Positions 7,671 through 64,000 of a stretch of 64,000 nt of DNA are shown piece by piece. The notes under the pieces are model-generated. The model had not been told where the DNA came from. It did not search any database and worked only from the letters and a program-made list of their open reading frames with translations. The number at the start of each line of letters is the position of its first letter. The stretch's first letter is position 1. The translations under genes and the position numbers were made by a program. The DNA comes from an uncultured Anaerobiospirillum sp. (GTDB lineage: Bacteria; Pseudomonadota; Gammaproteobacteria; Enterobacterales; Succinivibrionaceae), in NCBI GenBank assembly GCA_944390115.1, contig CALXOW010000005.1, positions 28,843 through 92,842 of the forward strand. Reading direction: 5' to 3'.

Positions 7671-8423
7671 TTAGAAAATCACTTGGACTTCACCAGGGGC
7701 GGTGACCACCGCCGAGATGACCTTATCGCTCTTGATATTGCGCACCCGAATCGATTCATTGACATTGCCTTCTTGCAGGGCAATGCCTGAGGTCTTAAGT
7801 GAGAGGCCGCCTGATCGGGCGACGATGTTGACCTTATCGTTCTTGCACACCACGCAAAAGCCATTGGATCTGATTTGCTCGCCTTGGCGCACGTCACGCT
7901 TTAAGCGGCTGCCCACCAAGACATTAGGGTCGGATACCGCCGTGGTGAGGTTGGTGTTTTCGTTGAGATAGACCTGCTTTAAGTCATCGGGGCTGATGAC
8001 ATTGCCCTTGGTTAAGTTGCGCGCGGCCACTAAGGCCGGAGTTAAGACGCTGACGCGCACCGGAATGTAGAGCGTGTATTGATTGCCCGGCTGGCTGCAA
8101 GAAATCATGACCTGCGAGGAACTGCGAATCTCGTTGCCGCGCAGCTGCGCTGTGAGGTAGCCTTCGCAGCGGCCGCCATAATTGCGCCGCTCATCTAAGC
8201 GTCCGGCTTCAACCTCGACCTTGATGTCATCAGTGCGGTTTTGAAATTGCGCCAGCACATATTGCTCGGCTACCCGCCGTAAGAACTCAACCTCTTCGAC
8301 GGTAGCTAAAGCAGGGGCACACAGGGCCAGACTTAGCGTGAGACTCAGCGTCAGACTCAGCGTCAGACTCAGCGTCAGACTCATCACCATGGCGCCAAGC
8401 TTGTGCCTTAACGATAATCTCAT
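7671..8423 (-). CDS. flgA: flagellar P-ring assembly chaperone FlgA
   Basis: FlgA is a periplasmic chaperone that helps FlgI polymerise into the P-ring. The 250-aa protein has a signal peptide ending near CAPALA, then the FlgA N-domain and a C-terminal SAF-like domain (LVAARNLTKGNVISPDDL, VLVGSRLKRDVRQGEQI, ending PGEVQVIF). The start at 8423 follows GAGGAGG on the minus strand; the open frame to 8498 lacks one. The hydrophobic core of the signal peptide is unusual: it is built from repeated SLTL units encoded by a 12-bp tandem repeat. Divergent from cheV. Confidence 0.9.
   Translation of the reverse strand: MRLSLRHKLGAMVMSLTLSLTLSLTLSLTLSLALCAPALATVEEVEFLRRVAEQYVLAQFQNRTDDIKVEVEAGRLDERRNYGGRCEGYLTAQLRGNEIRSSSQVMISCSQPGNQYTLYIPVRVSVLTPALVAARNLTKGNVISPDDLKQVYLNENTNLTTAVSDPNVLVGSRLKRDVRQGEQIRSNGFCVVCKNDKVNIVARSGGLSLKTSGIALQEGNVNESIRVRNIKSDKVISAVVTAPGEVQVIF
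8329..8384 (-). repeat. 12-bp tandem repeat in flgA signal peptide
   Basis: The unit AGACTCAGCGTC occurs three times exactly (8341-8376), with a degenerate copy before it and a partial copy after. It encodes Leu-Ser-Leu-Thr units forming the hydrophobic core of the FlgA signal peptide. Confidence 0.9.
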
Positions 8424-13563: not shown

Positions 13564-14451
13564 ATGCCTAGTGTTTACTCCACAACGAGCTCCAGCAGTT
13601 CGATCTACGAAGATCTGGGCTTAAACACGACTGAGTCGGTCAAAGAGGCCGCCTCTCAAGTTAAGGATCAAACCTTAACCCAAGAGGACTTCTTAATGCT
13701 GCTCACCACGCAGCTGCAAGCACAAGATCCAACCAATCCAGCCGACAATACCGAGCTGGTATCGCAAATGTCGCAGCTGTCCATGGTTGAGAGCTTAAAC
13801 TCGATCAACACCAGCATGGATGGCATTATCGAGCAGGTTAAGTCGAGCTCGGCGCTCAACGCCACTTCGCTCATCGGTACCTATGTGTACACCGATAGCA
13901 ATAAGGGCTTCTTCGATGGCTCCAACACCTTAAGCTGGGCGATCGATGCCGGTGACGAGACCTATTACGATCTCGAGCTCACCATCAAGGATGCCTCCTC
14001 AGGTGAAGTCGTGTACCGCGATAGCGCCGATGCCTTAACCAGCGAAATCAAGTTTGCCTGGCCGGGCATTTACTCGCCGGATGGCCCAGTGGAGACACCA
14101 TCGACCGGCGGCGGTGAGGGTGATACCTCCACCGGTGATGAGGTTGCCGCCGCTGATGGTACCGATACGGGTACTGATACTGGCACCGATACCGGCACGG
14201 GTGATGAGGTCGCCGATGGCGATGAGGGCACCACCGATCCTGATACCCCAAAGTATCAGCTGTGCGCCGCCGGTAAGTACGTCTTAGAGGTCACGGGCAA
14301 GAATGCCGCCGGTGAGACTATTCGTCTGCCGGTTAAGAGCTTAGGCTTAGTCACCTCGGTCACCTTAGGCAATACCACCAGCGATACCATGCTCTCGATC
14401 TATGGTGCCGGTGAGATTTCCTTCGAGGACGCCAAGAAGGTCACGATCTAA
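13564..14451 (+). CDS. flgD: flagellar hook-capping protein FlgD
   Basis: FlgD caps the growing hook and organises FlgE assembly. The 295-aa protein carries the FlgD N-terminal signature (TQEDFLMLLTTQLQAQDPTN, then NTELVSQMSQLSMVESL) and a C-terminal beta-domain. Between the two halves of that beta-domain, about residues 170-225, lies an acidic insertion rich in Asp, Thr and Gly with several DTGT repeats. The ATG at 13564 follows GAGG at 13554-13557; the longer frame from 13369 would run through the sigma54-like site. The gene that should follow, flgE, is absent. Confidence 0.93.
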   Translation: MPSVYSTTSSSSSIYEDLGLNTTESVKEAASQVKDQTLTQEDFLMLLTTQLQAQDPTNPADNTELVSQMSQLSMVESLNSINTSMDGIIEQVKSSSALNATSLIGTYVYTDSNKGFFDGSNTLSWAIDAGDETYYDLELTIKDASSGEVVYRDSADALTSEIKFAWPGIYSPDGPVETPSTGGGEGDTSTGDEVAAADGTDTGTDTGTDTGTGDEVADGDEGTTDPDTPKYQLCAAGKYVLEVTGKNAAGETIRLPVKSLGLVTSVTLGNTTSDTMLSIYGAGEISFEDAKKVTI

Positions 14452-14717
14452 AGATCGCATATCGTGTCCTCGCCTTGAGGCCAAGGCCCACGCCGTGGAC
14501 CTTGGCCTTGCTGTATTTAGTGCCACAAAGCACGATCTGATCCCAAAATGGCTTAAAATAGCGGGGCTAATCAGCAAGCAGCCACTGCGCGCTAGGAGCG
14601 CAACCTGCGCAGAGCAATGGCGCAACCAAGCGCCGTAAGTACTCAGCAGGATCGCCGCAAAGCGGCGCCAACGCCCGCTAAATGGGGCTTGGCCTGGGCT
14701 TGATGGGGACTTGGGCG

Positions 14718-18578: not shown

Positions 18579-18674
18579 TTATGAGCGGTTAATTAAAATG
18601 GCAAGGAACAACATCGTTGCCGAGAAGAAAGCGCATAATGCGATAAAGATCCAATCCATCCACGTGAAGTCCAT
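18579..18674 (-). CDS. 31-aa single-pass membrane microprotein, copy 1
   Basis: The minus-strand ORF encodes MDFTWMDWIFIALCAFFSAT followed by a hydrophobic stretch and a C-terminal NRS. GAGG lies six bases before the ATG. One transmembrane helix spans about residues 8-28, with acidic residues before it and Arg at the end, which predicts N-out/C-in. It is too short for normal gene finders. Copies 2 and 3 keep MDxxWMDW, IA-CA-F and the AIL-NR end, and the differences are clustered in the helix. The function is unknown. Candidates are a small subunit of a membrane complex or a type I toxin-like peptide. Confidence 0.75.
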   Translation of the reverse strand: MDFTWMDWIFIALCAFFSATMLFLAILINRS

Positions 18675-18894
18675 TTGGCACCTCAATTTCTAAAAGCGCT
18701 GGTTTTAGCCACACGGCTTCTAACTTGTACCAGCTGTTCACACCTATTAAAAGATGCTGGTGACCTAAAATCTTTCGCTCTATGCGCAAGGATAGTGGTG
18801 GTTAGCAACGCTCGGCTTTTATGGTTGGCTGCTCGCTGCCTCTGGGCTAAACGACATGTGTGAGCTCTTGCTCATGAAATCCGTGCCTTAGAGA

Positions 18895-18918
18895 CAAAAC
18901 AGCCTCAGCGGCTAGGCT
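18895..18918 (-). terminator. terminator of microprotein copy 2 unit
   Basis: On the minus strand AGCCTAGC pairs with GCTGAGGCT (small mismatch) and is followed by GTTTTGTC. The same hairpin recurs in the copy 3 unit. Confidence 0.55.
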
Positions 18919-18936
18919 AAGACTATTTCCCGAATT

Positions 18937-18968
18937 TAGGCTGATTGAGATAGGATTGGTTCAGCCTA
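18937..18968 (-). repeat. hairpin in the 3' tail of microprotein copy 2
   Basis: TAGGCTGA and TCAGCCTA are perfect eight-base inverted arms. The same arms occur at 19475-19513 after copy 3 and in a weaker form after copy 1 (about 18502-18528). A conserved GGGAAATAG follows on the minus strand. Confidence 0.7.
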
Positions 18969-19004
18969 CTATTTTCTGCGTGATGACTGCGGTGCTAAAT
19001 GCCG

Positions 19005-19100
19005 TTATAAGCGGTTAAGCAGAATGGCATAGAACACTGCCGATGCACCGAACAAAGCGCATAATGCGATAAAAACCCAATCCATCCAGTTAAGATCCAT
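19005..19100 (-). CDS. 31-aa single-pass membrane microprotein, copy 2
   Basis: The peptide starts MDLNWMDWVFIALCALFGAS and ends AILLNRL. GAGG lies five bases before the ATG at 19100. A longer open frame reaches 19433 but lacks a ribosome site and would cover the conserved promoter-like region, so the short form is preferred. A minus-strand TATAAT sits at 19171-19176 about 70 bases upstream, and two conserved hairpins lie downstream, so this looks like an independent transcription unit of about 250 bases. Unlike copy 1 in the second half of the helix, nearly identical to copy 3. Confidence 0.78.
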   Translation of the reverse strand: MDLNWMDWVFIALCALFGASAVFYAILLNRL

Positions 19101-19170
19101 TTGCACCTCGATTTTCAAAAGCACTGGTTTGAGCCACACGGCTCCTAAATTGCGCCAGATGGTACTGACC

Positions 19171-19176
19171 ATTATA
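19171..19176 (-). promoter_or_regulatory. -10-like element before microprotein copy 2
   Basis: The minus strand reads TATAAT in a block (AACCTCTTATAATG) that is conserved before copy 3 at 19722-19727 and as TTTAAT before copy 1 at 18746-18751. No strong -35 is seen. Confidence 0.5.
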
Positions 19177-19430
19177 AGAGGTTTGCGACCTGAAAGCAGT
19201 GCTTTTTGCTGCAGGCTTGTGAGTCTCCTACCCCTCTGGGCCTGGAAAGCAAGCCAAATATTCAGACGGGGACAGGTTAATGCGTCGACCACACCGGCTG
19301 TGCTTTTTGGCGCGGCCGTGGTTAGCAATGCTCGGCTTTTCTGTTGGTCTGTCCGTTCCAGCCGTGCACACCGAGCCCAGCGACAAGAGATAGTGCATGT
19401 TCGCAGCTCATAAAAGCCATGCTTTAGAAA

Positions 19431-19460
19431 CAAAACAGCCTTAGCTGTTAGGCCAAGGCT
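19431..19460 (-). terminator. terminator of microprotein copy 3 unit
   Basis: On the minus strand AGCCTTGGC pairs with GCTAAGGCT (one G-T pair) and is followed by GTTTTGTTT. Confidence 0.65.
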
Positions 19461-19474
19461 ATTTCCCGAGAATT

Positions 19475-19513
19475 TAGGCTGATTGCTGATTGAGATAGGA
19501 TTGGTTCAGCCTA
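19475..19513 (-). repeat. hairpin in the 3' tail of microprotein copy 3
   Basis: TAGGCTGA at 19475-19482 and TCAGCCTA at 19506-19513, as after copy 2, with a slightly longer loop. Confidence 0.7.
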
Positions 19514-19549
19514 CTATTTTCTGCGTGATGACTGCGGTGCTAAATGCCG

Positions 19550-19645
19550 TTATAAGCGGTTAAGCAGAATGGCATAGAACACTGCCGATGCTCCGAACAA
19601 GGCGCAGAATGCGATAAAAACCCAATCCATCCAGGTGAAATCCAT
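19550..19645 (-). CDS. 31-aa single-pass membrane microprotein, copy 3
   Basis: The peptide starts MDFTWMDWVFIAFCALFGAS and ends AILLNRL, differing from copy 2 at only three positions. GAGG lies six bases before the ATG. The upstream block with TATAAT at 19722-19727 and the downstream hairpins match copy 2. This is the member nearest to the 182-aa membrane protein gene, which is on the same strand 200 bases upstream. Confidence 0.78.
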   Translation of the reverse strand: MDFTWMDWVFIAFCALFGASAVFYAILLNRL

Positions 19646-62656: not shown

Positions 62657-62698
62657 GCCCAGTCACGCTCAGCGCAGACGGCACACTCCGCAGCAAGC

Positions 62699-62733
62699 AG
62701 CCCTCAGCTGCTCAGAGCCACGACCTGAGGGCT
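62699..62733. terminator. hairpin after membrane peptide A
   Basis: AGCCCTCAG at 62699-62707 and CTGAGGGCT at 62725-62733 form a perfect nine-pair stem. It lies one base from the stop of peptide A on the minus strand and between it and the convergent holB. Confidence 0.6.
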
Positions 62734-62734
62734 A

Positions 62735-62800
62735 TCACTTGATCATGTAGGCGAAGGCGCCAAAGATCAGGCAGAACATGAGGAAAACGTAGAGTTCCAT
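62735..62800 (-). CDS. 21-aa membrane peptide A
   Basis: The minus strand encodes 21 residues, MELYVFLMFCLIFGAFAYMI and a final Lys, with GGAGG five bases before the ATG. The sequence is almost entirely one membrane helix, with Glu at position 2 and Lys at the end (N-out/C-in predicted). Peptide D is the same family (MELY...FGAFAYMIK conserved, centre changed), and peptide B is related (MEFF...GFAYLVK). Function unknown. It could be a small subunit of a membrane complex, a regulator peptide or a type I toxin-like peptide. Confidence 0.75.
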   Translation of the reverse strand: MELYVFLMFCLIFGAFAYMIK

Positions 62801-62858
62801 GTGAGCCTCCGTTTAGTTGGCTTGAGGTGGCAGGGGGTGCTGTGCGGCCTGCATGATC

Positions 62859-62924
62859 TTATTTAACGAGATAGGCAAAGCCTAAGCAGATTAACACAAA
62901 GTGCAATATTACAAAAAATTCCAT
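62859..62924 (-). CDS. 21-aa membrane peptide B
   Basis: The peptide is MEFFVILHFVLICLGFAYLV plus Lys. GAGG lies five bases before the ATG. It overlaps in layout with peptide C: C's stop codon lies eight bases before this start, with the ribosome site in between, so the two are probably translated from one message. Same length and charge pattern as A and D. Confidence 0.7.
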   Translation of the reverse strand: MEFFVILHFVLICLGFAYLVK

Positions 62925-62931
62925 TGCTGCC

Positions 62932-63066
62932 TCATTGGCTGGATTTGTTGATATTTGACCTGTTTAATGCAATTGTTGTCGAATGCCACTCATTAAAAAT
63001 GAGATACAATATAACAGGGATGCTTACGCCAATTATGATGGTTGCTATTGCAAGTATTCCGAACAT
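62932..63066 (-). CDS. 44-aa membrane peptide C
   Basis: The ORF starts MFGILAIATIIIGVSIPVIL and ends with a polar tail (FNEWHSTTIALNRSNINKSS). One membrane helix at residues 2-24. The ATG has no clear ribosome site; the in-frame upstream codons (KKKARL) reach a stop without another start. It sits between peptides D and B on the same strand and overlaps B's leader. Confidence 0.5.
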   Translation of the reverse strand: MFGILAIATIIIGVSIPVILYLIFNEWHSTTIALNRSNINKSSQ

Positions 63067-63139
63067 GAGGCGAGCTTTTTTCTTAAAGAGAAAATAATTG
63101 TAATATAATTAAGTTATGTAGAGACAATAAAAACAAAGC

Positions 63140-63170
63140 TACAGTGAGCCAATTTTATTAGCCCACTGTA
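63140..63170 (-). terminator. terminator after membrane peptide D
   Basis: On the minus strand TACAGTGGGC pairs with GCTCACTGTA (one G-T pair), ten pairs, followed by GCTTTGTTTTTATTG. It separates peptide D from peptides C and B. Confidence 0.75.
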
Positions 63171-63218
63171 TTTTCGCTTTTGCTTCAAAGCATCACTAAA
63201 GATGCTGTTGCGCATTCT

Positions 63219-63284
63219 TTACTTAATCATGTACGCGAATGCGCCGAAGAGTATGAAAAACATGATAATCATGTAGAGTTCCAT
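63219..63284 (-). CDS. 21-aa membrane peptide D
   Basis: The peptide is MELYMIIMFFILFGAFAYMI plus Lys, with GGAGG five bases before the ATG, the same leader (CGGAGGC) as peptide A. Identical to A at MELY and FGAFAYMIK; the middle differs but stays hydrophobic. The conservation of ends and of the ribosome site, with a changed centre, argues for a translated gene family. Own terminator downstream. Confidence 0.75.
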   Translation of the reverse strand: MELYMIIMFFILFGAFAYMIK

Positions 63285-63347
63285 AGTTGCCTCCGTTGGT
63301 GGTGCTAGGGGCTGCAGTGCTTTGCTCTGCGGTTAACATGCCTTTAC

Positions 63348-63419
63348 TTAACGCGAAAAATGTATAATATATTGAAGAAGGTAAATTGCAAACAATCCGC
63401 CGACGATAATAAAAGACAT
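63348..63419 (-). CDS. 23-aa membrane peptide E (candidate)
   Basis: The minus strand encodes MSFIIVGGLFAIYLLQYIIH plus FSR, a single membrane helix. No good ribosome site precedes the ATG (only AAGT further up). It resembles A-D in size and place, but not in sequence. Weaker than the others. Confidence 0.35.
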   Translation of the reverse strand: MSFIIVGGLFAIYLLQYIIHFSR

Positions 63420-63436
63420 GCTATGGATCTAACTTG

Positions 63437-63951
63437 TCACTTGAGCCATTCACAGGCCTTATCAAAATTAAGCTTGCAACTTTTTTCTAATAAACGGGCT
63501 GCTTCAGAAAGGTTGTGTTCAACTCCTTCTCCATTCAAGAACATTGATCCAAGTACCGCACAAGATTCACCATCGTTAAGATTACAAGCTTTTGTAAGTA
63601 GCTTGCCGATTTTAAAAGGTTTTTATCTACCCTATCACCCAAATAGTACAATGATCCTAGCTTAACACAGGCATCAATATTGCCAAAATCGCATCCTTTA
63701 TGATATAGACTTTGCGCTTTGGATATGTTTTGTTCAACGCCATTTCCTTCCAAGTATATCTCTCCGAGAAATGTACAAGCACTGCCATTATTAAGTTCAC
63801 AACCTTTTTGCAATAGGTTGATTGCTTCAGATAGGTTGTGTTCAACTCCTTCTCCATCCAAGAACATCGATCCAAGCACCGCACAGGCGTTGCCGTCGTT
63901 AAGATTACAAGCTTTATGTAAGTACTCAAACTCCCTGAAGGTTATACGCAA
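63437..63951 (-). pseudogene. frameshifted Sel1-repeat protein gene
   Basis: The minus strand encodes Sel1-type repeats, each with paired Cys (KACNLNDGNACAVLGSMF, KGCELNNGSACTFLGEIY, KGCDFGNIDACVKLGSLY), as in HcpA-like secreted proteins. Near 63588-63597 one A is missing from an A-run (CAAAAGCTTG where CANAAAGCTTG is expected). The frame then leaves the repeat and stops at 63535. In the other frame the pattern continues (CNLNDGESCAVLG, CKLNFDKACEWLK) and stops at 63437. The start is unclear (TTG 63951 without ribosome site), so the 5' end looks cut too. Two units are nearly identical, showing recent duplication. Confidence 0.75.
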
Positions 63952-64000
63952 AAAGGCACGCAGTTAAAGCTAAATACGATATATAAGCCATTATATGCCA

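Follow-up and report, generated by a model that had tools for sequence, protein, structure and literature searches.

Predicted tandem 21-aa membrane microproteins beside holB in an uncultured Anaerobiospirillum sp. and their tentative comparison with type I toxin peptides

The open reading frames A, B and D, located beside holB near the end of the 64,000-nt stretch analysed here (the window), constitute, as judged from sequence comparison, a real paralogous family of 21-aa peptides whose protein sequence is kept while the synonymous sites change. Their assignment as a real family of membrane microproteins is well supported by the excess of synonymous changes, the repeated layout of start codon and ribosome site, an in-frame relative in the sister genome G003 and the chance controls. 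Regarding function, a mode of action like that of the type I toxin membrane peptides (Ibs, Ldr, Zor) is tentatively preferred, at somewhat less than even confidence and with no claim of membership in that class. The features discussed are collected in Table 1; the names of the long genes (holB, lptF, flgI, der, glgP and gyrA) are presumptive, having been assigned by eye from the translations.

Table 1. Location and main characteristics of the cluster features and of the further microprotein arrays (window positions, unless a locus is named)
Feature	Position	Strand	Description
Peptide A	62735..62800	minus	21 aa, MELYVFLMFCLIFGAFAYMIK, ATG start; ribosome site GGAGGC 62805-62810
Peptide B	62859..62924	minus	21 aa, MEFFVILHFVLICLGFAYLVK, ATG start; ribosome site TGAGGC 62929-62934
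Peptide D	63219..63284	minus	21 aa, MELYMIIMFFILFGAFAYMIK, ATG start; ribosome site GGAGGC 63289-63294
Leader/spacer between B and A	62801..62858	minus	homologous to the spacer upstream of D (63285-63347)
ORF C	62932..63066	minus	44 aa, hydrophobic, no ribosome site
ORF E	63348..63419	minus	23 aa, no ribosome site
Promoter-like site TTTGCA, 17 nt, TATTAT	63364..63392	minus	about 80 nt upstream of D, inside E; consensus match only
Terminator-like hairpin and T run	63140..63170	minus	downstream of D; consensus match only
GC-rich stem AGCCCTCAG/CTGAGGGCT	62699..62733		between the 3' ends of holB and A; no T run; from folding
31-aa family, three tandem membrane microproteins	18579-19645	minus	homologous leaders; tail to tail with flgI
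27-aa array, five copies	L116 14073-15377 (G000 contig 15)	plus	MGIATV...RIR type
23-aa array, four copies	L140 16354-16733 (G000 contig 15)	minus	MIGVLFSLGTL...DWAAR type; 30-31-nt spacers; tail to tail with der

The whole set lies on the minus strand, in the order E, D, C, B, A along transcription, and is arranged tail to tail with holB. As originally predicted, A and D have in common the MELY start, the FGAFAYMIK end and the GGAGGC ribosome site, found 4 nt before the ATG in both; the proposed kinship of B is equally borne out, since it is 52% identical to A and carries TGAGGC at the same distance. Residues M1, E2, F9, F16, A17, Y18 and K21 are invariant across the three peptides, the positively charged K21 being the C-terminal residue in each, and the best 15-residue hydropathy mean is 2.5-2.7. 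The window ends where the contig ends, so the sequence farther upstream sits on another contig.

The comparison of A with D provides the clearest sign of coding constraint. The two differ at 15 of 66 nucleotides, and by the Nei-Gojobori count the differences affect 7 of 11.0 synonymous but 7 of 52.0 non-synonymous sites (pS 0.64, pN 0.13). No changes are present in codons 1-4, two synonymous and six non-synonymous changes occur in codons 5-13, and codons 14-21 contain three synonymous and no non-synonymous changes; conserved ends around a varying helix centre, as had been proposed, therefore describe this pair correctly, all non-synonymous changes falling in codons 5-13. When the substitutions were placed at random (20,000 trials), equal residue retention with no stop and the start kept was reached in 0.03% of cases (P = 0.0003), with every substitution weighted alike and on short sequences. 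In the pairs with B the synonymous sites are saturated (pS 0.9-1.2), with pN of 0.33-0.37.

The occurrence of such ORFs also exceeds chance expectation. A strict scan of the 64-kb window (G?GAGG, 3-8 nt, ATG, 15-45 aa, best 15-residue hydropathy of at least 1.6) returns exactly six ORFs, namely A, B, D and three 31-aa ORFs, whereas shuffles of the whole window (n = 20, 1-kb blocks) averaged 0.65 and reached at most 2. Within 62657-64000 three such ORFs are found, whereas 200 dinucleotide shuffles averaged 0.02 and never gave more than 1.

The alignments further indicate two diverged tandem units with homologous leaders, one ending in A and the other in D. The two genes have in common a direct repeat of 77 nt at 77% identity, and their upstream spacers align with a local score of 51.6, a value not reached in 500 mononucleotide shuffles (maximum 36.9). 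For the whole upstream region the score is 84.8, versus 68.5 in shuffles; in this alignment B of the A unit is matched with E of the D unit, a portion that is weak on its own (p 0.036), and no similarity is detected downstream of A and D. The B-type copy within the D unit has neither start codon nor frame, and ORF E is therefore read as probably overlying a decayed relic of this copy.

The original prediction of a cluster of 21-44-aa membrane peptides is supported for A, B and D, but not for C and E. ORF C lacks a ribosome site, and its best match outside its own genome in 11 genomes of the genus is not convincing (E value 0.16); its status as a real gene is doubtful; its predicted overlap with the leader of B is nonetheless confirmed, as its stop codon (62932-62934) falls within the ribosome site of B. 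ORF E, also without a ribosome site, had been brought in by extending the cluster to 63419, an end point that is not upheld. Promoter-like sites number 8 in the stretch, against 3.0 in shuffles, and one terminator-like hairpin is observed, against 1.3 expected. Close by, the reading frame of a Sel1-repeat ORF (63437-63951, minus strand) shifts near its 3' end, which reflects either a frameshift in the gene or misassembly close to the contig end.

Among 57 genomes of the family, the A/B/D profile (E ≤ 0.05) yields three matches in the present genome (G000) and one in G003. The G003 relative is located directly downstream of holB and preserves residues 4-21 in frame, 16 of 18 being identical to A by eye. 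The lack of homologues with a preserved frame had been named as the finding that would speak against the family, which narrowly survives: the frame is kept in G003, but start codon and ribosome site are lost. A DNA search of G003 with the G000 cluster recovered solely this A-like piece beside holB. Its divergence from A (pS 0.35, pN 0.057) exceeds that of holB between G000 and G003 (pS 0.153, pN 0.002), and the piece may therefore represent a different paralogue or a copy already decaying.

Outside these two genomes, the best match in a search of 59 genomes (E ≤ 10) has an E value of 0.077. No match to A, B or D was obtained at E ≤ 10 among Pfam, NCBIfam, PHROGs and PADLOC families and PDB chains, and tblastn with D against phage and plasmid records gave zero matches, a search in which a 21-aa query has little power. 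Literature searches on small proteins of Succinivibrionaceae and on small membrane proteins of Anaerobiospirillum found nothing on such peptides, and among the listed works on tandem small membrane proteins in general none was judged relevant. Several weak matches were rejected as chance: a pattern match in a viral collection (L036), opposite a 183-aa ORF; a genome-collection match (L039) with an in-frame stop; and three profile matches at E 1e-3 to 1e-2 among 395 genomes of the order, of which L095 has no start codon and L096 and L097 lie opposite long ORFs. Within the window, a 19-aa frame at 54307-54342 matches with E 0.28 and is present in G003 too.

The interval between holB and lptF deserves separate description. 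In the eight other genus genomes in which the holB locus was read, lptF lies at most about 1.1 kb downstream of holB; in G000, G003 and G010 the two genes are on separate contigs, which points to a variable or hard-to-assemble segment between them. At the equivalent place beside holB in G010, a third species, there is a different, very hydrophobic 26-aa ORF with a GAGG site (L042:2913-2993), rejected as a relative of A, B and D because the similarity is not significant (p 0.10-0.56). A dispersed repeat of about 145 nt (L042:2759-2908) lies next to it; the repeat matches 10 more places in G010 but none in the 10 other genomes of the genus that were searched. No hydrophobic ORF with a ribosome site occurs within the scanned stretch at these 10 matches.

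The claim that the genome has at least two microprotein families proved too modest, as two more tandem arrays, of five 27-aa and four 23-aa copies, were recovered besides the 31-aa family. The wider sample comprised 40 stretches of 20 kb plus the window (864 kb, 24% of the 3.64-Mb genome), and the strict scan was applied there to ORFs of 15-60 aa outside longer open frames. It gave 12 matches, nine in the four tandem families and three single (57, 44 and 35 aa), one 31-aa copy being lost to the filter; the 27- and 23-aa arrays were completed from the sequence surrounding these matches. At least four tandem families with 15 ORFs are thus present in this 24% of the genome; they show no significant homology to known families and, where this was tested, none among themselves. 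Among the 57 family genomes, each occurs at E ≤ 1e-3 in G000 and G003 only, with 3 and 1 matches, respectively, for the 21-aa peptides (the G003 one truncated), 3 and 2 for the 31-aa, 5 and 3 for the 27-aa and 4 and 5 for the 23-aa peptides; the weaker matches include E 0.0041 in G060 (best for the 31-aa profile) and E 0.0042 in G080 (27-aa profile).

The single-span 31-aa peptides have a WMDW start and two relatives in G003 and match no Pfam or NCBIfam family at its cut-off. Like A, B and D, they are minus-strand tandem microproteins placed tail to tail with a long gene and, at E ≤ 1e-3, limited to the two sister genomes; unlike them, they have another length, start and leader. The original description of the two sets as unlike is roughly right, in that their homology is not significant (hhalign probability 3.4%, P 0.013), but a faint VF...C..FGA.A pattern is common to both. 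The lowest p among 12 pairs is 0.002 (A against one 31-aa copy), and for B against the 31-aa copies p is at least 0.69 in all four pairs. In the fold of five 31-aa units, 1 of 35 pairs is changed on both sides.

The other arrays show signs of constraint, too: within G000, pS exceeds pN in 10 of 10 pairs of the 27-aa array and in 6 of 6 pairs of the 23-aa array, where copies 2 and 3 differ by 8 synonymous changes and 1 non-synonymous change. One 27-aa paralogue pair between the genomes has pS 0.230 and pN 0.236. The three 160-nt spacers between copies 2-5 of the 27-aa array are 82-90% identical, the coding parts being 64-87% identical and thus partly less alike. Inside the same array lie a hydrophobic ORF of 24 aa that starts with GTG (L116:14281-14355) and, beside it, a second short hydrophobic ORF (about 14420-14505), which are perhaps a further small family. 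On G003 contig 67 (L152, L156) the 3' part of der is repeated near the 23-aa array, as though the der end and the array had been copied jointly.

A blind search for similar neighbours on the same strand identified 33 pairs in range in the 864 kb, 17 of them above the score cut; 16 of these 17 fall inside the four arrays and the last at L132. Elsewhere, the corresponding numbers are 0 of 9 pairs in 400 kb of G009 and 1 of 13 in 400 kb of G005. The G005 pair consists of tandem 49-aa microproteins (L184:7477-7784, plus strand), tail to tail with gyrA and with an apparent out-of-frame third copy near 7918. In five of five cases a long gene has its 3' end turned towards the downstream end of the array (holB, flgI, der and glgP, and gyrA for the G005 pair), an arrangement of about 1 in 32 if orientation is random, although the pattern was sought post hoc.

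On two E. coli K-12 stretches, the same blind search recovered ibsA/ibsB and missed ldrABC; the signature is therefore common with the known toxin class, the search is incomplete and the resemblance partial. In PMC8309996, membrane type I toxins are described as hydrophobic peptides of fewer than 60 aa with one putative transmembrane helix, positively charged C-terminal residues are common but not universal (exceptions are named), and tandem duplication is given as the search criterion by which ZorO was found. Peptides A, B and D match the features listed there, as far as sequence tells, being small, hydrophobic, single-spanning and basic at the C-terminal residue.

Among known toxin loci, Ibs/Sib, Ldr/Rdl and ZorO/OrzO are the closest parallels. 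The Ibs peptides of E. coli are likewise hydrophobic (18-19 aa), with ibsA and ibsB in tandem about 330 nt apart in an intergenic region, but each ibs gene is under a Sib RNA on the opposite strand, and the sequences are unrelated by eye. The ldrA, ldrB and ldrC genes, 535 nt apart, also encode small membrane peptides in tandem, and their arrangement with the housekeeping gene kdsA is tail to tail, like that of A with holB; Ldr, however, has 35 aa, and antisense RNAs (RdlA-C) are annotated on the opposite strand. ZorO, a 29-aa hydrophobic peptide from two tandem, highly similar gene pairs, was itself found via tandem small hydrophobic ORFs, but it has a known antitoxin RNA, OrzO, and a 5' leader hiding the ribosome site, according to PMC11264685 and PMC8309996; neither was found for A and D.

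The search for an antitoxin RNA covered promoter-like sites, Rfam and inverted repeats, which together constitute weak evidence of absence. No plus-strand promoter-like site is placed to read across A, and none is equivalent for A and D; Rfam gave four weak matches, all below the gathering score; and the inverted repeats provided no consistent candidate for A and D. The leader folds of A and D show no shared structure and no conserved sequestration of the ribosome site. At the 31-aa loci, plus-strand promoter-like sites occur at equal places in two units, which are duplicates, with 1.6 expected by chance.

A, B and D are probably translated and would span the inner membrane as single helices, the acidic N-terminus lying on the outer side and the C-terminal lysine on the cytoplasmic side; D probably has its own short mRNA. 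In the toxin-like reading, the peptides might normally be silenced by RNA-level control and, once made, could act directly on the membrane, lowering its potential and slowing growth; the 31-, 27- and 23-aa arrays may be parallel sets of like kind. This reading is favoured by the synonymous-site excess between A and D and the number of ORFs above chance, the tandem units with a homologous leader, the agreement with type I toxin features, the three further tandem families of like build, the recovery of ibsA/ibsB by the pair search, and the narrow distribution with a change in copy number between two sister species. Against it stand the unsuccessful search for an antitoxin RNA, the leader folds without conserved sequestration and the failure to recover ldrABC. 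The strongly conserved FAY..K end also exceeds the needs of a generic membrane peptide, which suggests a specific contact as well. Small accessory or regulatory subunits of membrane proteins or complexes are known, such as CydX, KdpF, AcrZ and MgtS, and a similar role, with the ends touching a partner and the helix centre free, is nearly as likely as toxin-like action, though still well short of an even chance. It is consistent with residues that remain invariant although synonymous sites are saturated in the pairs with B, with the 27-aa array beginning 32 nt after a larger orphan membrane protein (a 296-aa coiled-coil ORF also present in G003), and with the location of the 21-aa cluster in the holB-lptF interval, where the lptF side in G000 contains Sel1-repeat ORFs and a membrane coiled-coil ORF of roughly 100 aa. 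However, no partner gene is common to the four arrays as far as they were read, three paralogues in a row with changing copy number would be unusual for a stoichiometric subunit, and no relative of known small subunits appears in Pfam, NCBIfam or PDB.

The remaining explanations are less probable. Young, nearly neutral or decaying short hydrophobic ORFs, born in this lineage, multiplied by local duplication and now disappearing without a settled function, would account for the presence in just two sister genomes of 57, the G003 copy without a start and the decayed look of the B-type copy in the D unit. This explanation is nevertheless improbable, as the A/D values of pS and pN imply long constraint, and the G000/G003 orthologues show synonymous/non-synonymous changes of 0/0 and 1/0 (27-aa) and 3/0 (31-aa). 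Still less probable are secreted or surface peptides directed against competitors, or peptides protecting the producer from them, with duplication as the source of diversity: tandem paralogues with a varying helix centre would fit, but no leader, transporter or maturation gene is seen in the cluster, the C-terminus and ends are conserved, and pN below pS in the pairs compared gives no sign of diversifying selection. Lastly, the 77-nt repeat, together with the variable holB-lptF segment and its contig breaks, could point to a DNA element (a recombination or regulatory site) with incidental open frames; this is very improbable, given that the changes concentrate at the synonymous sites of one frame and the ribosome site is held at a fixed distance.

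Annotation misses peptides of this length, and guesses about what they do rely mostly on hydrophobicity. The several tandem families found in 24% of this genome, together with constrained paralogues and copy-number differences between sister species, constitute a natural test series for whether such peptides are toxins, subunits or something else, and candidates without a homologue in the searched databases can be found by a rule as simple as a ribosome site, a short span and a similar neighbour. Arrays of single-span membrane microproteins may even form a genome-wide system of this lineage, a fast-renewed membrane-control layer rather than a set of classical antisense-regulated toxins, although this broader view is considered rather unlikely at present.
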